Source: Halalkalicoccus tibetensis (GTDB lineage Archaea > Halobacteriota > Halobacteria > Halobacteriales > Halalkalicoccaceae). Taken from it: a DNA stretch of 64,000 bases. Of the stretch, positions 16,578-38,866 are shown piece by piece (the first letter of the stretch is position 1; every line of letters begins with the position of its first letter). The DNA is taken from contig NZ_JBBMXV010000006.1 in NCBI RefSeq assembly GCF_037996645.1, forward strand, positions 124,001 to 188,000, read 5' to 3'. The translations under genes were made by a program, and so were the position numbers. The notes beneath the pieces are model-generated. The model saw only the letters and a list, made by a program, of their open reading frames with translations, was not told the DNA's origin and did no database searches.

Positions 16578-17624
16578 ATGAACGAAATTGAGTCCCTCGA
16601 AGAGGCGATCAGCCTTCTGGAAGACCAGTATAGCGAAGAGCAGGTCGTTGTTGAGCCCACACTGAGGGCGAAGCAGGCCGTCTATCCTGATATTGCTGTA
16701 TTCCAAGATTCCAATCACACAAAACCATTTCTGCTCGTAGAATGGAGTAGTCTCCGTACAAGCCACCGGGCAGAACAAGATCTGAGTGATATCTCAGAGG
16801 CTGTTGCAGGAACCGAGGCACCATATGGTGCTCTTCTCTCTCCTGGAGTTCAATTCATTTTCTCCGGAACTAGTCCTGGCTACCAATCCTACGCTCATTT
16901 TCCAGATATCGATAAAAAGGAACCAGCTGATAAACGAGCTGTTCAATCCTCAGCAGAGCTTGACTTCTTGATTGACCGCTGTCTGGGAGCACAGGAAGCG
17001 GTTCGTCCCAATCACGCGCGGAACGATCAAGCTGCTGACGAATTTCTAGAGTCACTACATCTGTTACTTGAACTTCGGAATACAGACGGAGCGAGTCCAA
17101 AAGGGATTGAGCAATCTACGATTTCCACTCTCTACTCCCAGATTGATGATCGATACCAATGGTACCAGCGTGGTGAGGAACTTGATAATCAATTTCTGAT
17201 TGCTGCCGCAGGAATATTTAATGGATTCTCACTGGACGAAACAGACAACGACATTCTGATGTCTCTCTTTGAAATTTCTGATGATGATCGTCGTGGCGGA
17301 GAATACGCTACTCCACTAGAGGTCGCCAGACAGATGGTTCGGCTATCTGGGCCGAGTTCGGACGACCTCGTCCTCGATCCAGCAGCGGGGCGGGGGACGG
17401 TTCTTTCATTGGTTGCTAAAGAGGGTGCTAGTGGAGTTGGCGTAGAAATTAATCCTGCTATATTGCGTATTGCGACGTTCTACGTCGACCTTCTCAAGCA
17501 CGATATTGAATTCACAGTAGGTAATTTCTTCAAGATGAGGAAAGACCTCAGGTCCTTTGGAGATCTACTTTTAATATCTGCTCGCTTTTCCACTTTAGTT
17601 TCTTGGAGTCGAACCTTCCCGTGA
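16578..17624 (+). pseudogene. N6-adenine methylase with HsdR_N-like domain, 3'-truncated
   Basis: Codons 1-130 contain a type I R N-terminal-like segment (EPTLRAKQAVYPDIAVFQD, then FLLVEW). Codons 190-330 start an N6-adenine methylase: GGEYATPLEVARQMV, and motif I LDPAAGRGT at 266-274, followed by GVEINP. Motif IV (NPPY/F) and everything beyond are missing. The last ~20 residues run into unrelated DNA and end at a chance stop. Intact relatives of this methylase class are several hundred residues longer. The break lies near 17,545-17,570, next to a truncated integrase, so the cut probably dates from an integration or deletion event. Confidence 0.75.
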
Positions 17625-17699
17625 TAGTGGCTATAACAGCTCTCCAGGGTGGCAATACAAGACTGATAACAAAAATGGGATCCGATTGAAAGATTTTTA

Positions 17700-18488
17700 G
17701 TATGAATAGCCTTCTAATCAGATCCTGCAAGCTAACTATCCAATTCTCTGTATTCTTCGAACTCTCTTCTTTTGGGATCCGCAGTACCTGATTACCTATA
17801 TCAATCCACTGAGTACGCGCCCGTCTAACCTCAATCGGACGAAGGCCAGTATCCAAACTTACAGCTACCAGTGACGGTATCTTCCATCCGTTCGCACGAT
17901 CCCAATCAGCAGGCGTTACATCCCTCTTTGGCTTTCCGTACCGCTGGGAGAGATATGTCCGCCACTGATCTCGCTCATCCGGACTCAAATCACTATAACT
18001 CGGAATCGACCCATACTCAAGTGCAGCCTCTCGGAGTTTGCTCCGCTCTTTTTCCGTGAAGTAATCTCGTGGCTGGCTCGCACTATCTGTCGTCGAAAAT
18101 GTTAGATGGGGCTTCCAAGAATCAAGCCCATGCTCATGTTCGCGCCACTTGAATAGCATTTCACCGCCTTCTGATGATTAGATTTGTCCACGTTGCTTGT
18201 GTCTCGATAGGCAAGATATTCCATATAGGCATCCGCATGGTCGTGAGTGATGTCTGCAGTATAGTGCCCTTCTTCAGTCCAGACCCAGCGATAGAACATA
18301 TCCATTCGATTCCCTCGTGACTTGACGGTCTCAAACGCATATCCATTAGCTTGGTCTGGGTCTTTTCCAAACGTTAGCAGCCATTTCAAACAGTTAGCAC
18401 GTTGAGATTGGTAGTCAATAAGCTGCCGTTCATTTAGATAGTCCTCCGAAAGTCCAGTAGCTATCGTGACCCCGTCCAGTATACTCAT
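17700..18488 (-). pseudogene. Tyrosine recombinase (phage integrase), frameshifted and truncated
   Basis: The N-terminal core-binding domain reads from the ATG at 18488 (YLNERQLIDYQSQRANCLKW ... NHQKAVK) and then shifts frame near 18,155. Continuing one frame over gives MLFKWREHEHGLDSWKP and the start of the catalytic domain (DTGLRPIEVRRARTQWIDI, containing the first catalytic Arg). A single missing base (AAATG instead of AAAATG) explains the shift. Homology ends after NWIVSLQ near 17,730; the remaining H-R-H-Y residues are absent. The gene lies next to the tRNA-Glu fragment on the same strand, the usual integrase-att arrangement. It cannot encode an active enzyme. Confidence 0.85.
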
Positions 18489-18816: not shown

Positions 18817-18862
18817 TGCTCCGTCAGGGATTCGAACCCTGGTCATTGCCGTGAGAGGGCAA
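18817..18862 (-). tRNA. tRNA-Glu(CTC) 3' half, probable attachment site
   Basis: On the minus strand the segment gives a 5-bp anticodon stem (TTGCC/GGCAA) with loop CTCTCAC (anticodon CTC, Glu), a T-arm CAGGG-TTCGAAT-CCCTG and the 3' acceptor strand ACGGAGCA ending at 18817. The D-arm and 5' acceptor strand are absent: upstream sequence diverges from any tRNA just before the anticodon stem. A 3' tRNA half beside a tyrosine integrase is the classic residue (attL/attR) of an integrated element. The intact tRNA-Glu should lie outside this window. Confidence 0.85.
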
Positions 18863-18915
18863 TAAAACTCAGACATGGCATTAATGTTCTATCTGTATGT
18901 TTGGTCCACACTCTG

Positions 18916-19137
18916 TTATTGACCTTCCTTTAACCTCTCTGGATCATCTATAAGCTGATATAATCCACTCTTGTGGATTTTTTCAACATGACCTGCAGCA
19001 ACAAGGACGTTAAGACGATTATGAATAGTTTGGTTTGATAGGTTTGTCCAATCTGTAAGTGCAGCGGGTGTGCAACGGCCTTTTCGAAGCTCTCTCAAAA
19101 TTTCTCTATCACTCTGCTGAAGGTCCTCTGAATTCAT
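18916..19137 (-). CDS. Small winged-helix protein
   Basis: A 73-residue MarR/phage-repressor-like winged helix: a helix with DREILRELRKG, then TPAALTDWTNLSNQTIHNRLNVL as turn and recognition helix, then a VEKIHKSGLYQL wing. Short stand-alone proteins of this kind are frequent in haloarchaeal proviruses and integrative elements, where they likely act as repressors. It lies on the far side of the tRNA-Glu half from the integrase. Target genes are not known. Confidence 0.75.
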   Translation of the reverse strand: MNSEDLQQSDREILRELRKGRCTPAALTDWTNLSNQTIHNRLNVLVAAGHVEKIHKSGLYQLIDDPERLKEGQ

Positions 19138-19266
19138 TTCTAGTGCTCATACTCATGGCCTTCTGCATAGTGATAACGGATCTATGTTTGACATCTACCA
19201 CTGGCCCATACTGATAGGATTGGCTAATAGTAAATACTAAGGAGTTGCTTACTCTTGTCTAAGTAG

Positions 19267-19340
19267 GAAGCGCGGTATCGTCAATTGAGAGAATTGGCCC
19301 GGTGTAGGAGCACCGGACCGCGCTTCTGGAGGTCCCAGAA
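19267..19340 (+). promoter_or_regulatory. Three-way-junction leader with a hairpin hiding the ribosome-binding site
   Basis: A perfect 10-bp stem P1 (GAAGCGCGGT 19267-19276 with ACCGCGCTTC 19317-19326) encloses two perfect hairpins: P2 CAATT-GAGAG-AATTG (19282-19296) and P3 CCGGTG-TAGGAG-CACCGG (19299-19316). A fourth hairpin, TTCTGG-AGGTC-CCAGAA (19324-19340), follows; it contains the GGAGG ribosome-binding site (19328-19332) and uses the same TTC bases as the end of P1. P1 and the last hairpin are therefore mutually exclusive. ATG of the next gene is at 19344. This has the layout of a cis-regulatory RNA, but a DNA-level role (protein-binding inverted repeats, origin or transposon end) is also possible. 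Confidence 0.6.
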
Positions 19341-19343
19341 GCA

Positions 19344-19550
19344 ATGAGCACTAGCAACTCAGCCGCAGAAAACAGTATCGCCTCCGAACAGACCAACCGA
19401 ATCACCGGTCCCCACCGCGAACCGCCGACGGTCGCAAACGCCACCACCTACTGGCGCTGCGAAGCCTGCGACCGCGAATCCATCCGCGAGCAGGACCTTC
19501 ACCGCGAGGCCTTCCACGCCAACGACTGTGAGGTGGCCGAGCGATGCTGA
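19344..19550 (+). CDS. Small zinc-finger protein
   Basis: A 68-residue protein. The C-terminal half has WRCEACDRES followed by HREAFHANDC and a terminal cysteine, a likely zinc site; the N-terminal half is polar and disordered-looking. Its stop overlaps the start of the next gene (ATGCTGA), so both are likely translated together. A GGAGG sits 11 bases upstream inside a hairpin. High GC compared with neighbours suggests acquisition with the following genes. Function unknown. Confidence 0.7.
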   Translation: MSTSNSAAENSIASEQTNRITGPHREPPTVANATTYWRCEACDRESIREQDLHREAFHANDCEVAERC

Positions 19551-20296
19551 CCGAAATCCCCACCAACAGTACCCAACTGTTCGCCGGCGCGCGACTCTCG
19601 AAGACTAACCCCGACTGCACGGCCTGCAACCGAACCCTGCGCGAAGGCGAACAGGTCACGATCTACGCCGCGCGCCAAGAGGACGCCCCCACATTCACGA
19701 TCGAACGCTGCTACTGTCGGGAGTGCGCCCCTGAGGAACTCACGAACCCAACGCTGGGCCTGAGCGAACACCTCCTCCAAACACGCCTCACCCGAACGCT
19801 CGACGTTCGCACTCAAAGTGAGTTCCAGACACTCGGCGAGATCCAGACGCTCGATGTAAGCGCCCCGAGCCAGGGCAGTGCCGAAGCCCACGACGAACCC
19901 CCGACGGCACTCCTTCGAGACACCCACACGCAGAACCCCGCAAGCGCGGTCTATCACATCGACGACGGCGAGGGCCAGCCGCTGTGTAACTGCGAGACGA
20001 ACGCCCAGTATACGCCGGTCCCGCTGGCGGAAGCCGAGGCGAGTACGGCCCGCCAGTGCGAGAACTGCCAGATCGCCCGCCAGGGCGAACAGGCCACCAA
20101 ACCCTGTCCTCACTGTAACGTGCCGGTTGGGATGAGCGCCTGGCCCCAACACGTCCGGGCGTGTACGGGTGATCCAACCGACGCCGCCGACGAAACCGAT
20201 CCCAACGGCGATCCTGCGATCACCCAGACCCCGCAGGCCACGAGCCCGACCACACGCACGGGCGTTCGCACACAGCTCCACCAGCACCAGGAGTAA
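19544..20296 (+). CDS. Multi-zinc-finger protein
   Basis: A 250-residue protein with several metal-site candidates: CTACNRT...CYCREC near residues 25-66, CNCET and CENCQ around residues 145-170, and a C2HC-like CPHCNVPVGMSAWPQHVRAC near residues 190-210. The C-terminus is low-complexity Thr/Pro. It overlaps the small zinc-finger gene upstream by 7 bp. Such haloarchaeal proteins are met in plasmids and integrative elements. A nucleic-acid-binding role is plausible but not shown. The long frame on the opposite strand is a GC-codon shadow. Confidence 0.75.
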   Translation: MLTEIPTNSTQLFAGARLSKTNPDCTACNRTLREGEQVTIYAARQEDAPTFTIERCYCRECAPEELTNPTLGLSEHLLQTRLTRTLDVRTQSEFQTLGEIQTLDVSAPSQGSAEAHDEPPTALLRDTHTQNPASAVYHIDDGEGQPLCNCETNAQYTPVPLAEAEASTARQCENCQIARQGEQATKPCPHCNVPVGMSAWPQHVRACTGDPTDAADETDPNGDPAITQTPQATSPTTRTGVRTQLHQHQE

Positions 20297-20471: not shown

Positions 20472-21191
20472 ATGAGTGAATCCACACCCACGACCACGAG
20501 TACCGAGAGTACCGCCACCGACCAGCCCGCGACTGAGACCGCAGAGCCAACCCTTGAGTCGGTCTGTGAACAGCTCGAGGCGCTCACCGATCGCGTTGCA
20601 GAACTCGAGGCCCAAATCGAACGAAAAGACGAGCGCATCGAAGAGCTGGAAGCAGAGCTTACCGAGTACAAGCGCTTTGCGGGCTCGGAGTTCGCCAACG
20701 TTCGCGGGCGGATCACCGACGTCGAAGACCAGACCGAAGAGCTCGAAACCATGCTTCAGGAGACGCCCATAGAGACCACCAACGTTGACGCCGAAGAGAA
20801 CGACTCTCAGACCACGACCACGGAGACACCCTTAGAGCGGATCTGTACGCTCCCCGAGCACGTCGCCGATCGCGAGCTCACAACGAACCAGAAGCGAGCG
20901 CGCTTCATCGCTCGGGACGTGAAAGACTACGCCGAGAAGGCGCCTGCTGGGCTCGTGCTCGATAGCCAGACGATTGCGAAGGTCATCACCGCCGCCGAAG
21001 GGTCGAAGCCTCACACGCAAACTGTGGCCCGAGTCATGGACTTCCTCGAGAAGCTCGGGAAGGACGACGTTGAGCAGACGAAACGTCGCGGGAAGAAGCT
21101 CGTTGTGGTTGACGAAGATGTGGCCAACCGATATCACGATCGTTGTGATCGGGCAAACGAACAACCGCCCGCAGGAGGCGTGATGTCCTAA
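20472..21191 (+). CDS. Coiled-coil plus winged-helix-like protein
   Basis: A 239-residue protein counted from the ATG at 20472, a better start than the upstream non-ATG possibility because the acidic Ser/Thr leader begins there. Residues of about 25-75 form a clear coiled coil with regular leucines and Glu/Lys pairs. Residues of about 120-215 are helical with a winged-helix feel (RARFIARDVKDYA, then SQTIAKVITAAEG, HTQTVARVMDFLEKLG). Proteins of this type recur next to zinc-finger genes on haloarchaeal mobile elements. It is probably DNA-binding and oligomeric; replication, partition or regulation are all possible. Confidence 0.75.
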   Translation: MSESTPTTTSTESTATDQPATETAEPTLESVCEQLEALTDRVAELEAQIERKDERIEELEAELTEYKRFAGSEFANVRGRITDVEDQTEELETMLQETPIETTNVDAEENDSQTTTTETPLERICTLPEHVADRELTTNQKRARFIARDVKDYAEKAPAGLVLDSQTIAKVITAAEGSKPHTQTVARVMDFLEKLGKDDVEQTKRRGKKLVVVDEDVANRYHDRCDRANEQPPAGGVMS

Positions 21192-34339: not shown

Positions 34340-34786
34340 ATGAATGCGGACCTCTTTCGGACAGTAATGGTACCGATTGCGGACCCAGACGACGCTCGGG
34401 AGACGGCACGAGCAATCCGTACATACCTCAGCCCAAACTCTGAGATTATCGTTACTCATGTCGTGCCAAAGGGAGAGGGAGTGCCAGACAAGGCATCAGT
34501 CGCTCAACGAAAGGATTTCGCGCAGGATGCTTACGAAAATTTTCTCAATGTACTCGCAGCAGACAAGAGCCGCATTACACCGTTGACATTATACGGCCGG
34601 GACGTTACAGACACGATTATTGAAGGGGCTCTGGAAACAGATACCACTACTATTGCTTTCACGCCACGGGGCGCGAGCAGATGGACGAAGTTGATTACGG
34701 GCAATATTTCTGAATCGCTGATTCGGAACTCTAGTGTTCCAGTACTCGTTCTGCCGCCGCAAGAAGAGTATGAGCCGCTCGAGTAA
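34340..34786 (+). CDS. Universal stress protein
   Basis: A 148-residue single USP domain: TVMVPIADPDDARETARAI start, IIVTHVVPKGEG, and the C-terminal ISESLIRNSSVPVLVLP. The usual ATP-binding G-2x-G-9x-G(S/T) stretch is degenerate (FTPRGASRWTKLITGNIS). It begins 24 bp after the APC-USP gene on the same strand and is probably co-transcribed, perhaps as an accessory sensor for the transporter. Confidence 0.9.
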   Translation: MNADLFRTVMVPIADPDDARETARAIRTYLSPNSEIIVTHVVPKGEGVPDKASVAQRKDFAQDAYENFLNVLAADKSRITPLTLYGRDVTDTIIEGALETDTTTIAFTPRGASRWTKLITGNISESLIRNSSVPVLVLPPQEEYEPLE

Positions 34787-37180: not shown

Positions 37181-38866
37181 ATGGTCGAGACAGTCGCACT
37201 GGCGACGGATTTTGCCCTCATCATTGGCGTAGCAGTTCTGCTGAGCTATATCGCCCGACTCACTGGACAACCGATCCTGATCGCATACCTCCTTACGGGG
37301 CTACTTGTTGGGCCGGTCTTTCTTGGCATTGTCATCGAAACTGACCTCATCGATTTGATGGCCGAGCTCGGGCTCGGATTCTTGCTCTTTCTAATCGGCC
37401 TGCGGATGCAAATTGACGAAATCCAAGAGATCTTCCGGCCCATTCTCAATCTCACGATCCTCGGAACAGTGTTGCAAACGCTGTTTGGCCTGCTCGTTGC
37501 GGTACTCTTCGGCTTCTCGCCGACCGAAATCCTCGTTATCGGACTCGCCTCAGTGTTTGGTGCAACACCGATTATCGTCAAGCTGCTTGCCGACAACGAT
37601 CAGATCAACACGTTACCCGGACGGATTGATGTCGGTGTACTGGTTGTTCAGAACATCTATCTTGTTCTCTTGCTTGCACTCTTCGGAGCGGGGTCGCTCG
37701 ATAGTCCCCTCGGAATTGCCATCAGTATCTTGACGGTGTTTGCACTCGTCGGTGCAATCGGGGCATTTGCCTACGTTGCTGCACGATACATTCTTCCAGG
37801 CCTGATCCAGTCGGTCGCGGACAACGATGAGATACTTTTTGTCGTCGGAATCGCATGGGCGTTCCTGTTTATCGTTGGTGCAGAAGAACTCGGTCTCTCG
37901 ATTGAGATGGGAGCGTTTTTAGCTGGAATCAGCCTCGCACAGGTCCCCCAGAGTGCGCAACTCGCAGAACAGGTCCAGCCGATTACAGACTTTTTCATGA
38001 TGGTATTCTTTACAAGTATTGGTCTCCAACTCGAGGCCGAGCAATTACTTGCGTTCTGGGTCGAGGCACTTATCGCCTCCGGCGTTCTAATGGGCGCGAA
38101 CTTCGCTGGCTTTGCGCTGCTCATCTACCGAGAGGGGTTTTCTCCCGAAACCTCCTTCATCGGGAGTCTCAACATGGTCCAACTCAGTGAGTTTTCACTC
38201 GTGCTCGGCTCGCTCGCGGTCGCCCAAGGCTTCGTCGGCACTGAAGTGCTCGGTTATTTGAGCCTACTCGCGATCGTGACAATGAGTGTTTCGACGTACT
38301 TCATCAACTACAACTACGAGCTGTATCGGTACGCCGAGCCGTATCTCGATCGCTTCTCTCGCGAGGATGATCACACGATGGATGTAAGCACTCGTGAGAA
38401 TCACGCCGTCGTTATTGGGCACGACGATGTGACCAGTGACGTACTGCCACTGCTTGGAAGACAATTCCACGATGTTGTGATCATTGACCGTAGTCAAGAA
38501 TATCTCAACAAGCTCGACGAGACAGAGTATGATCTCATCTATGGCGATTTCAGCCATACCGAACACCGGAACGCGGCCAACCTCGACCGCGCGGCGTTCG
38601 TCCTCAGTTCGTCCGTACAGCGCGAAGTAAACCGAACACTGCTTGAGGAAGTAAACGATGAGGCGACGGTATTCATCGAGGCCGAACAAATCAAGGATGC
38701 TTTTGACCTTTACGAGCGGGGAGCAGACTACGTTATCATAAGTACGGTATTGGCCCGCGAGATGATTGGCGAACACTTGCGTCAGTATCTTACCGATCAC
38801 GAGGCGTTCATGGACGTACGTGATCGGGACATCGGTCGAATGTTATGGAGGCTTGGCGATGACTGA
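37181..38866 (+). CDS. CPA2 cation/proton antiporter with TrkA_N domain
   Basis: A 561-residue KefB/KhtU-like exchanger. About 12 membrane segments occupy residues 1-390 (ALATDFALIIGVAVLLSYIARLTGQPILIAYLLTG, FGATPIIVKLL, LAWAFLF-like segment, MGAFLAGISLA). A Rossmann-type TrkA_N domain covers about 405-530 (HAVVIGHDDVTSDVLPLLG...VVIIDR). It likely exchanges K+ or Na+ for H+ across the membrane with nucleotide control. It is followed with an 8-bp overlap by a second exchanger. Confidence 0.93.
   Translation: MVETVALATDFALIIGVAVLLSYIARLTGQPILIAYLLTGLLVGPVFLGIVIETDLIDLMAELGLGFLLFLIGLRMQIDEIQEIFRPILNLTILGTVLQTLFGLLVAVLFGFSPTEILVIGLASVFGATPIIVKLLADNDQINTLPGRIDVGVLVVQNIYLVLLLALFGAGSLDSPLGIAISILTVFALVGAIGAFAYVAARYILPGLIQSVADNDEILFVVGIAWAFLFIVGAEELGLSIEMGAFLAGISLAQVPQSAQLAEQVQPITDFFMMVFFTSIGLQLEAEQLLAFWVEALIASGVLMGANFAGFALLIYREGFSPETSFIGSLNMVQLSEFSLVLGSLAVAQGFVGTEVLGYLSLLAIVTMSVSTYFINYNYELYRYAEPYLDRFSREDDHTMDVSTRENHAVVIGHDDVTSDVLPLLGRQFHDVVIIDRSQEYLNKLDETEYDLIYGDFSHTEHRNAANLDRAAFVLSSSVQREVNRTLLEEVNDEATVFIEAEQIKDAFDLYERGADYVIISTVLAREMIGEHLRQYLTDHEAFMDVRDRDIGRMLWRLGDD

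Follow-up and report, generated by a model that had tools for sequence, protein, structure and literature searches.

Structured leaders are the targets of cis-antisense RNAs in the systems of the CopA/CopT, RNAI/RNAIII and hok/Sok type on bacterial plasmids and phages, where U-turn (UNR) loops are found, the sequence U-N-R being characteristic of loops at which pairing with an antisense RNA is initiated. In the Excludon of Listeria, an antisense RNA may in addition double as the 5' part of the mRNA of a divergent gene. For the haloarchaea, the account given in PMC6523106 is that structured cis-regulatory RNAs are hardly known and that most mRNAs are leaderless. The closest described system is that of the Halobacterium virus phiH1, whose early lytic transcript T1 has an antisense RNA, T(ant) (Stolt & Zillig 1993, as cited in PMC4284463 and PMC6210493); as summarised in PMC4284463, the antisense RNA exposes T1 to the RNases of the host and the ribosome site is cut off. 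In the annotation of phiH1, T1 starts at 38582 and T(ant) at 38732, i.e. one base before the ATG at 38733, and a small HTH gene (imm) is divergent from them. The phiH1 leader is 151 nt long, and in its fold the 5' end is paired with a middle strand, GCTC; this strand has a second complement in the GAGC that precedes the ATG, the sequence AAGGAGG lying between these two.

In the window, by which is meant the whole stretch of 64,000 nucleotides that was analysed, a leader of this general layout occupies positions 19267-19342 of the forward strand. It consists of a 10-bp helix P1 enclosing two hairpins, P2 and P3, after which a further hairpin, P4, follows. The 5' arm of P1 (19267-19276), located where the mRNA is predicted to begin, forms 10 of 10 base pairs with its 3' arm (19317-19326); P2 extends over 19280-19298 (19280-19286/19292-19298), P3 over 19299-19316 (19299-19305/19310-19316) and P4, with 8 of 8 base pairs, over 19322-19342 (19322-19329/19335-19342), the 3' arm of P4 ending one base before the ATG at 19344. 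All four of the inverted repeats that the first-pass annotation had described are present, close to where it had placed them. The minimum free energy of 19266-19346 is -38.5 kcal/mol compared with -23.5 +/- 3.1 for dinucleotide shuffles (z -4.8; 0 of 200 shuffles). A strict scan of the window for this geometry, in which only Watson-Crick pairs were admitted, gave no match, because P2 contains a wobble pair. No match in the window was obtained from Rfam release 15 at the gathering threshold, the best sub-threshold match (ATPC, on the opposite strand of the element, with 21.7 bits against a threshold of 45) being taken as chance, and a search of the open-licence literature found no paper describing this leader family.

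Copies of the leader within the genus were obtained by a DNA search, and 14 of them served to build the first covariance model, which gave matches in 110 of the 391 haloarchaeal genomes (E <= 0.01). With a model from a wider alignment, matches were found in 134 of these 391 genomes and in 53 of the 86 genera (E <= 0.001), the covariance E-values in both cases resting on a short calibration. In the models R1 and R2 the structure string was out of register with the pairs, and homologues were matched mainly by sequence; in the model R3, which carries the correct pairs, distant members score higher, as exemplified by the locus L122 (46.4 bits versus 33.9 with R1). In a draw of genomes from the whole phylum, 17 out of 393 match, and they belong only to the order of the window. 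Copies of the leader are also found on plasmids and on predicted viral contigs, of which the latter were examined by a pattern scan as well, but only about 7 of its 32 matches are real as judged by model R2; the pattern scan of genomes likewise returned many unrelated bacteria by chance.

The leader is a real and conserved RNA family, whose fold has been selected as RNA. In 95 distinct copies, all homologues that keep the fold, 93.1% of the cells of a model-fitted alignment pair, compared with 75.0% after shuffling; two-sided changes are seen at 23 of the 24 base pairs, inclusive of all six pairs of P2, and there are 373 compensatory cells against 95 +/- 13 in the shuffled alignments. The covariation score for these copies is 0.451, and it falls to at most 0.068 if the partner is slid by 1-3 columns. 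As the 95-row alignment was fitted to the structure, a cleaner, albeit smaller, test is provided by an alignment of 14 copies made from sequence only, in which 91.8% of the cells are paired and 7 pairs are compensated (0 of 500 shuffles). The shuffle controls of both alignments are inflated by kinship among the sequences. Compensatory changes in P1, P2 and P3 had been named in the first-pass annotation as a check on its claim, and they are present in each of these helices and also in P4. The covariation is weak at the five bases which P1 and P4 share, because these bases are nearly invariant. Further, P1 and P2 together contain 45 G-U pairs and 8 A-C mismatches (p 2e-7), both of which are penalised alike, and due to this large excess of G-U the folding strand is the mRNA-sense strand. 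The excess is weaker if all four helices are counted (47 versus 31; p 0.09); the count was limited to P1 and P2 because a conserved C-A by P3 distorts it and 16 C-A mismatches occur at the P4 boundary.

The sharing of bases between the closing helix and the last hairpin, which had been noticed earlier for the letters TTC, is real, but it involves the five bases GCTTC at 19322-19326. In 86 of 100 copies, at least four of these five are able to pair in P1 as well as in P4, and the competition is kept in these copies; however, the two forms are not strictly exclusive, as had been assumed, since five pairs of P1 are left when P4 is complete and three pairs of P4 are left when P1 is complete. In the window copy, the form with full P1 (-37.3 kcal/mol) and that with full P4 (-38.5 kcal/mol) are separated by about 1 kcal/mol, and across the family the median difference between them is -3.0 kcal/mol, with 32 of 49 copies lying within 4 kcal/mol. 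In the types represented by L105, L118 and L122, the middle strand is changed and P4 is kept (as seen by parsing and by eye), and in the L117 subfamily P1 and P4 barely overlap. Due to these few divergent lineages, the P1/P4 competition is to be regarded as common rather than universal.

Of the 97 copies that have P4, there are 91 in which this hairpin stops 0-1 nt short of the ATG. The GGAGG which had been reported in the last hairpin is found in the window as GGAGGT (19328-19333), straddling the 5' arm and the loop of P4, but it is not conserved as such: a Shine-Dalgarno (SD) match of at least 4 nt is present in 44 of 72 copies, and SD-like bases are enriched near the ATG in the family. Of the junction and loops, J1/2 varies, J2/3 is usually absent, and the loops vary, with a weak preference for A-G-A-A in that of P2. 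The P3 loops show U-N-R on either the sense or the antisense strand in 68 of 72 copies, compared with 43 +/- 4 for shuffled loops.

A motif learned by EM from the 35 bases that precede each leader, with coding sequence excluded, is WWCGWAANNTTTAA, which is a BRE plus TATA-like pattern of the haloarchaeal kind. In phiH1, 6 of the 11 annotated starts (viz. T1, T(ant), T4, T6, T(LX1) and T(LX3)) have the best match of the resulting matrix 39-40 nt ahead of them, and T1 and T(ant) are located exactly, each of the two sites being 39 nt upstream of the mapped start. In the window, the best forward match (score 9.49) is a predicted sense promoter with the BRE/TATA sequence ATAGTAAATACTAA at 19227-19240 on the plus strand, from which the start is predicted 39 nt on, at 19266; with the 39-40 nt offset, the predicted sense start across the family is at a median of 2 nt before P1. 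The earlier proposal is supported in part, namely as regards an RNA leader with a three-way junction, the compensatory changes, a transcript start, which is predicted here, and the P1/P4 competition beside the ribosome site.

A second promoter is predicted to face the first one from within the coding sequence. When the same matrix, trained on the forward promoters only, is run along the reverse strand over -85 to +215 relative to the ATG, one family-wide peak is obtained, at +38 (z 6.8), which none of 200 column-shuffled matrices reaches, and in 43 of 72 copies the site at +38 outscores all other reverse sites, against an expectation of 0.75. This family promoter falls inside codons 8-13 of first genes that are unrelated to each other, and its position is also that of a nucleotide motif, RAAAANNGTAYCG, seen at +24 to +36 of these genes. 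The third base is A or T in codon 9 of 93% and in codon 11 of 83% of the copies, compared with about 25% in codons 18-40. In the window, the predicted antisense promoter (GGCGATACTGTTTT on the minus strand, 19369-19382) is located in codons 9-13 of the first gene, with a start at about 19343, i.e. at the base before the ATG, and an RNA from it would run through the leader towards the divergent winged-helix gene. The +38 site of the window is itself weak (score 2.86), ranking fourth among the reverse-strand sites between -150 and +150, and the stronger ones are within the AT-rich promoter region. The first-pass annotation missed both this predicted reverse-strand promoter within the gene and the resemblance to T1/T(ant) of phiH1, two findings that point to antisense control.

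The likeness to phiH1 extends to several features, viz. a structured leader bounded on one side by the sense start and on the other by an antisense start immediately ahead of the ATG, a reverse promoter in the coding sequence at +38, a divergent small HTH gene, the order GAGC/GCTC/GAGC of 5' arm, middle strand and pre-ATG arm, and an SD-like sequence in the last hairpin. In the Natrialba virus phiCh1, the leader of ORF55/ORF56 shows the same layout, again with a reverse promoter at +38, and although the 5' arm of its P1 differs from that of phiH1, its partner follows the change, as judged by eye (GAGCAAGCG/CGCTTGCTC versus GAGCAGG/CCTGCTC). However, the phiH1 leader differs in its length of 151 nt, in its interior and in having mapped RNAs. 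The covariance models gave no match in phiH1 (R1 at E <= 10; R2 at E <= 0.05), and therefore what is claimed is the same layout and not membership by homology. Similarly, no relation was detectable between the regulator of the window and the phiH1 proteins Imm and RepR. The leader family and phiH1 T1 probably work the same way. A separate observation made by eye in phiH1 (L163) is that T4 also begins with an apparent three-way-junction leader at 34556-34640, in which CTGACGAAGG/CCTTCGTCAG surround two hairpins. In comparison with the bacterial systems of the CopA/CopT type, the present family differs in having archaeal promoters, in the location of the antisense promoter within codons of unrelated genes, and in a predicted antisense RNA that runs towards a divergent regulator; this RNA may, as in the Excludon, form the 5' part of the divergent mRNA.

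In the window, the leader is followed on the plus strand by genes for a 68-aa putative zinc-finger protein (19344-19550), a 250-aa Cys-rich protein (19544-20296) and, as part of the same cassette, a coiled-coil protein (20472-21191), and this gene order is repeated in other Halalkalicoccus plasmids. On the minus strand, a gene for a 73-aa winged-helix regulator (18916-19137; HTH_24, phrog_38164) is divergent from them. Around the start of the latter gene there is a 17-nt inverted repeat (88% complementary, 19107-19123/19159-19175), which is possibly its operator, and a 14-nt inverted repeat (93%) that contains ATGAGCACTAG is common to the start regions of the regulator and zinc-finger genes (19137-19150/19344-19357). 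Further along, a partial tRNA (18817-18879, minus strand; 24.7 bits, under the Rfam threshold of 29), which is without the D-arm region, adjoins two broken integrase-like ORFs (17548-18488, minus strand), and together these are probably the attachment site and the remnant of an integrative element. A DNA methyltransferase gene that looks truncated (16578-17624) lies beside the integrase remains.

The first-pass annotation had connected the leader with zinc-finger genes and had suggested probing with zinc. The zinc-finger protein of the window is, however, found in just 18 of the 391 haloarchaeal genomes, far fewer than the leader, which is therefore not tied to it. In 118 of 120 copies, a start codon occupies the last three positions of the model, which itself ends there, but the first genes that begin at this codon are unrelated: they include the zinc-finger type of the window, short DWC..LPCFACF proteins, SWIM zinc-finger proteins and 'GVD' proteins, as well as one integrase-like protein and a number of ORFs that are just 17-31 codons long. 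A leader specific for zinc-finger genes was rejected on this ground, and a special relation to zinc sensing is not supported. The copy before the integrase-like gene (L009, 1502-1587) has the matching coding motif in an apparent N-terminal extension of that gene. At L087, L144, L030, L033 and L106, the leader is kept before first ORFs of only 17-28 codons, and the main role of the coding prefix in these ORFs may be to harbour the antisense promoter. On the other side of the leader, a divergent small gene from one of two main families is present at 93 of the 120 loci, 67 of these being in the cluster of the winged-helix regulator of the window and 26 in a second family, one member of which matches phrog_26393.

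In interpreting these results, four other explanations need to be considered. If the leader were a purely cis-acting translational switch, along the lines of the first-pass annotation, then a metabolite, an ion or the temperature would decide, without an antisense RNA, whether GCTTC is taken by P1 or by P4. The overlap of the two helices in most copies, the closeness in energy of their two states in many of these, and the location of the P4 end and of the SD-like bases next to the ATG are as such a switch would have them; however, a strongly conserved junction core is not apparent, the cargo genes share no common pathway, and the reverse promoter in the coding sequence is left unexplained, so that this explanation is considered improbable. 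A riboswitch for a metabolite or for zinc is in particular unlikely, as the coherent downstream pathway expected of a riboswitch is not seen among the unrelated first genes. Slightly less probable again is a protein-binding leader, autogenous or acted upon in trans, where the regulator of the cassette or a host protein would bind the junction and block translation, as in the leaders of ribosomal-protein genes. The conservation of a three-way junction immediately before the start codon and the small regulator-like protein encoded beside most copies would suit this explanation, but the divergent genes fall into two or more families, of which the larger is of a DNA-binding type, and the products of the first genes, being unrelated between copies, cannot be one autoregulator.

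Of the same low probability as the protein-binding leader is a 5'-terminal structure that merely stabilises the mRNA or promotes initiation and has no switching function; the start of P1 at the predicted 5' end agrees with it, but neither the sharing of strands by P1 and P4 nor the reverse promoter is explained. Lastly, the leader could be a DNA-level element, such as a transposon end, an attC-like recombination site, an origin or an array of binding sites, alternatives of which some had been raised at the outset. It is true that the leader and about 13 codons precede unrelated genes, as if they moved as a unit, and that they occur on plasmids and predicted viral contigs. However, the excess of G-U over A-C would not be expected of strand-neutral DNA, the start codon adjoins the leader nearly always, the promoter is at a near-fixed distance, and the stem sequences differ while their pairing is kept. 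On the G-U count and the adjoining start codon, a transposon end or attC-like site was rejected, and DNA-level elements as a whole are disfavoured to the point of being very improbable.

The explanation that is preferred, and which we hold to be fairly probable, is that the element is an antisense-controlled leader of the phiH T1/T(ant) type, widespread and portable, in which the P1/P4 competition may set the access to the ribosome site. According to this proposal, an operon carried by mobile or accessory DNA of haloarchaea would have the element as its entire 5' leader, and the element would lie between two promoters that face each other. The sense mRNA would have its 5' end at the base of P1 (about 19266), and P1-P2-P3, together with P4, would form during its synthesis; if P1 is complete, then P4 would be frayed to three pairs and the ribosome site would be open. 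From the promoter in codons 9-13, synthesis of the antisense RNA would set in opposite the last base ahead of the ATG (about 19343), and this RNA would cover the whole leader; its pairing would begin at the loops and then spread, by which P1 would be dismantled. With P1 lost, either P4 would close or the duplex would be cut, as is reported for phiH T1, and in both cases the operon would be silenced, the strand of the regulator being made while this is so. The further course of the antisense strand is towards the divergent regulator, which would make the two transcripts mutually exclusive. The fold and its conservation, the strand that folds, the promoter motifs with their spacing and the parallel with phiH1 and phiCh1 are results of the sequence analysis. 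That an antisense RNA is made at the window locus, that it represses the operon and that the P1/P4 effect has this direction is what we infer from the sequences.

A broader form of this proposal, for and against which we consider the chances to be evenly balanced, is that a previously undescribed, haloarchaea-wide RNA family constitutes a portable two-strand switch. Its antisense promoter would be embedded in codons 9-13 of unrelated genes, the leader would be the exact overlap of sense and antisense RNA, the P1/P4 competition would turn antisense pairing into an on/off choice, and this choice would be between the operon of a mobile element and its divergent regulator. Since the fold and the promoters are defined and cultured hosts are available (Haloferax mucosum, Natrinema and Halalkalicoccus), the mechanism would, if this reading is true, be directly testable. 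It would then extend antisense control of this kind from a single virus case, the only one that has been tested so far, to a family found in roughly one in three of the sampled haloarchaeal genomes.
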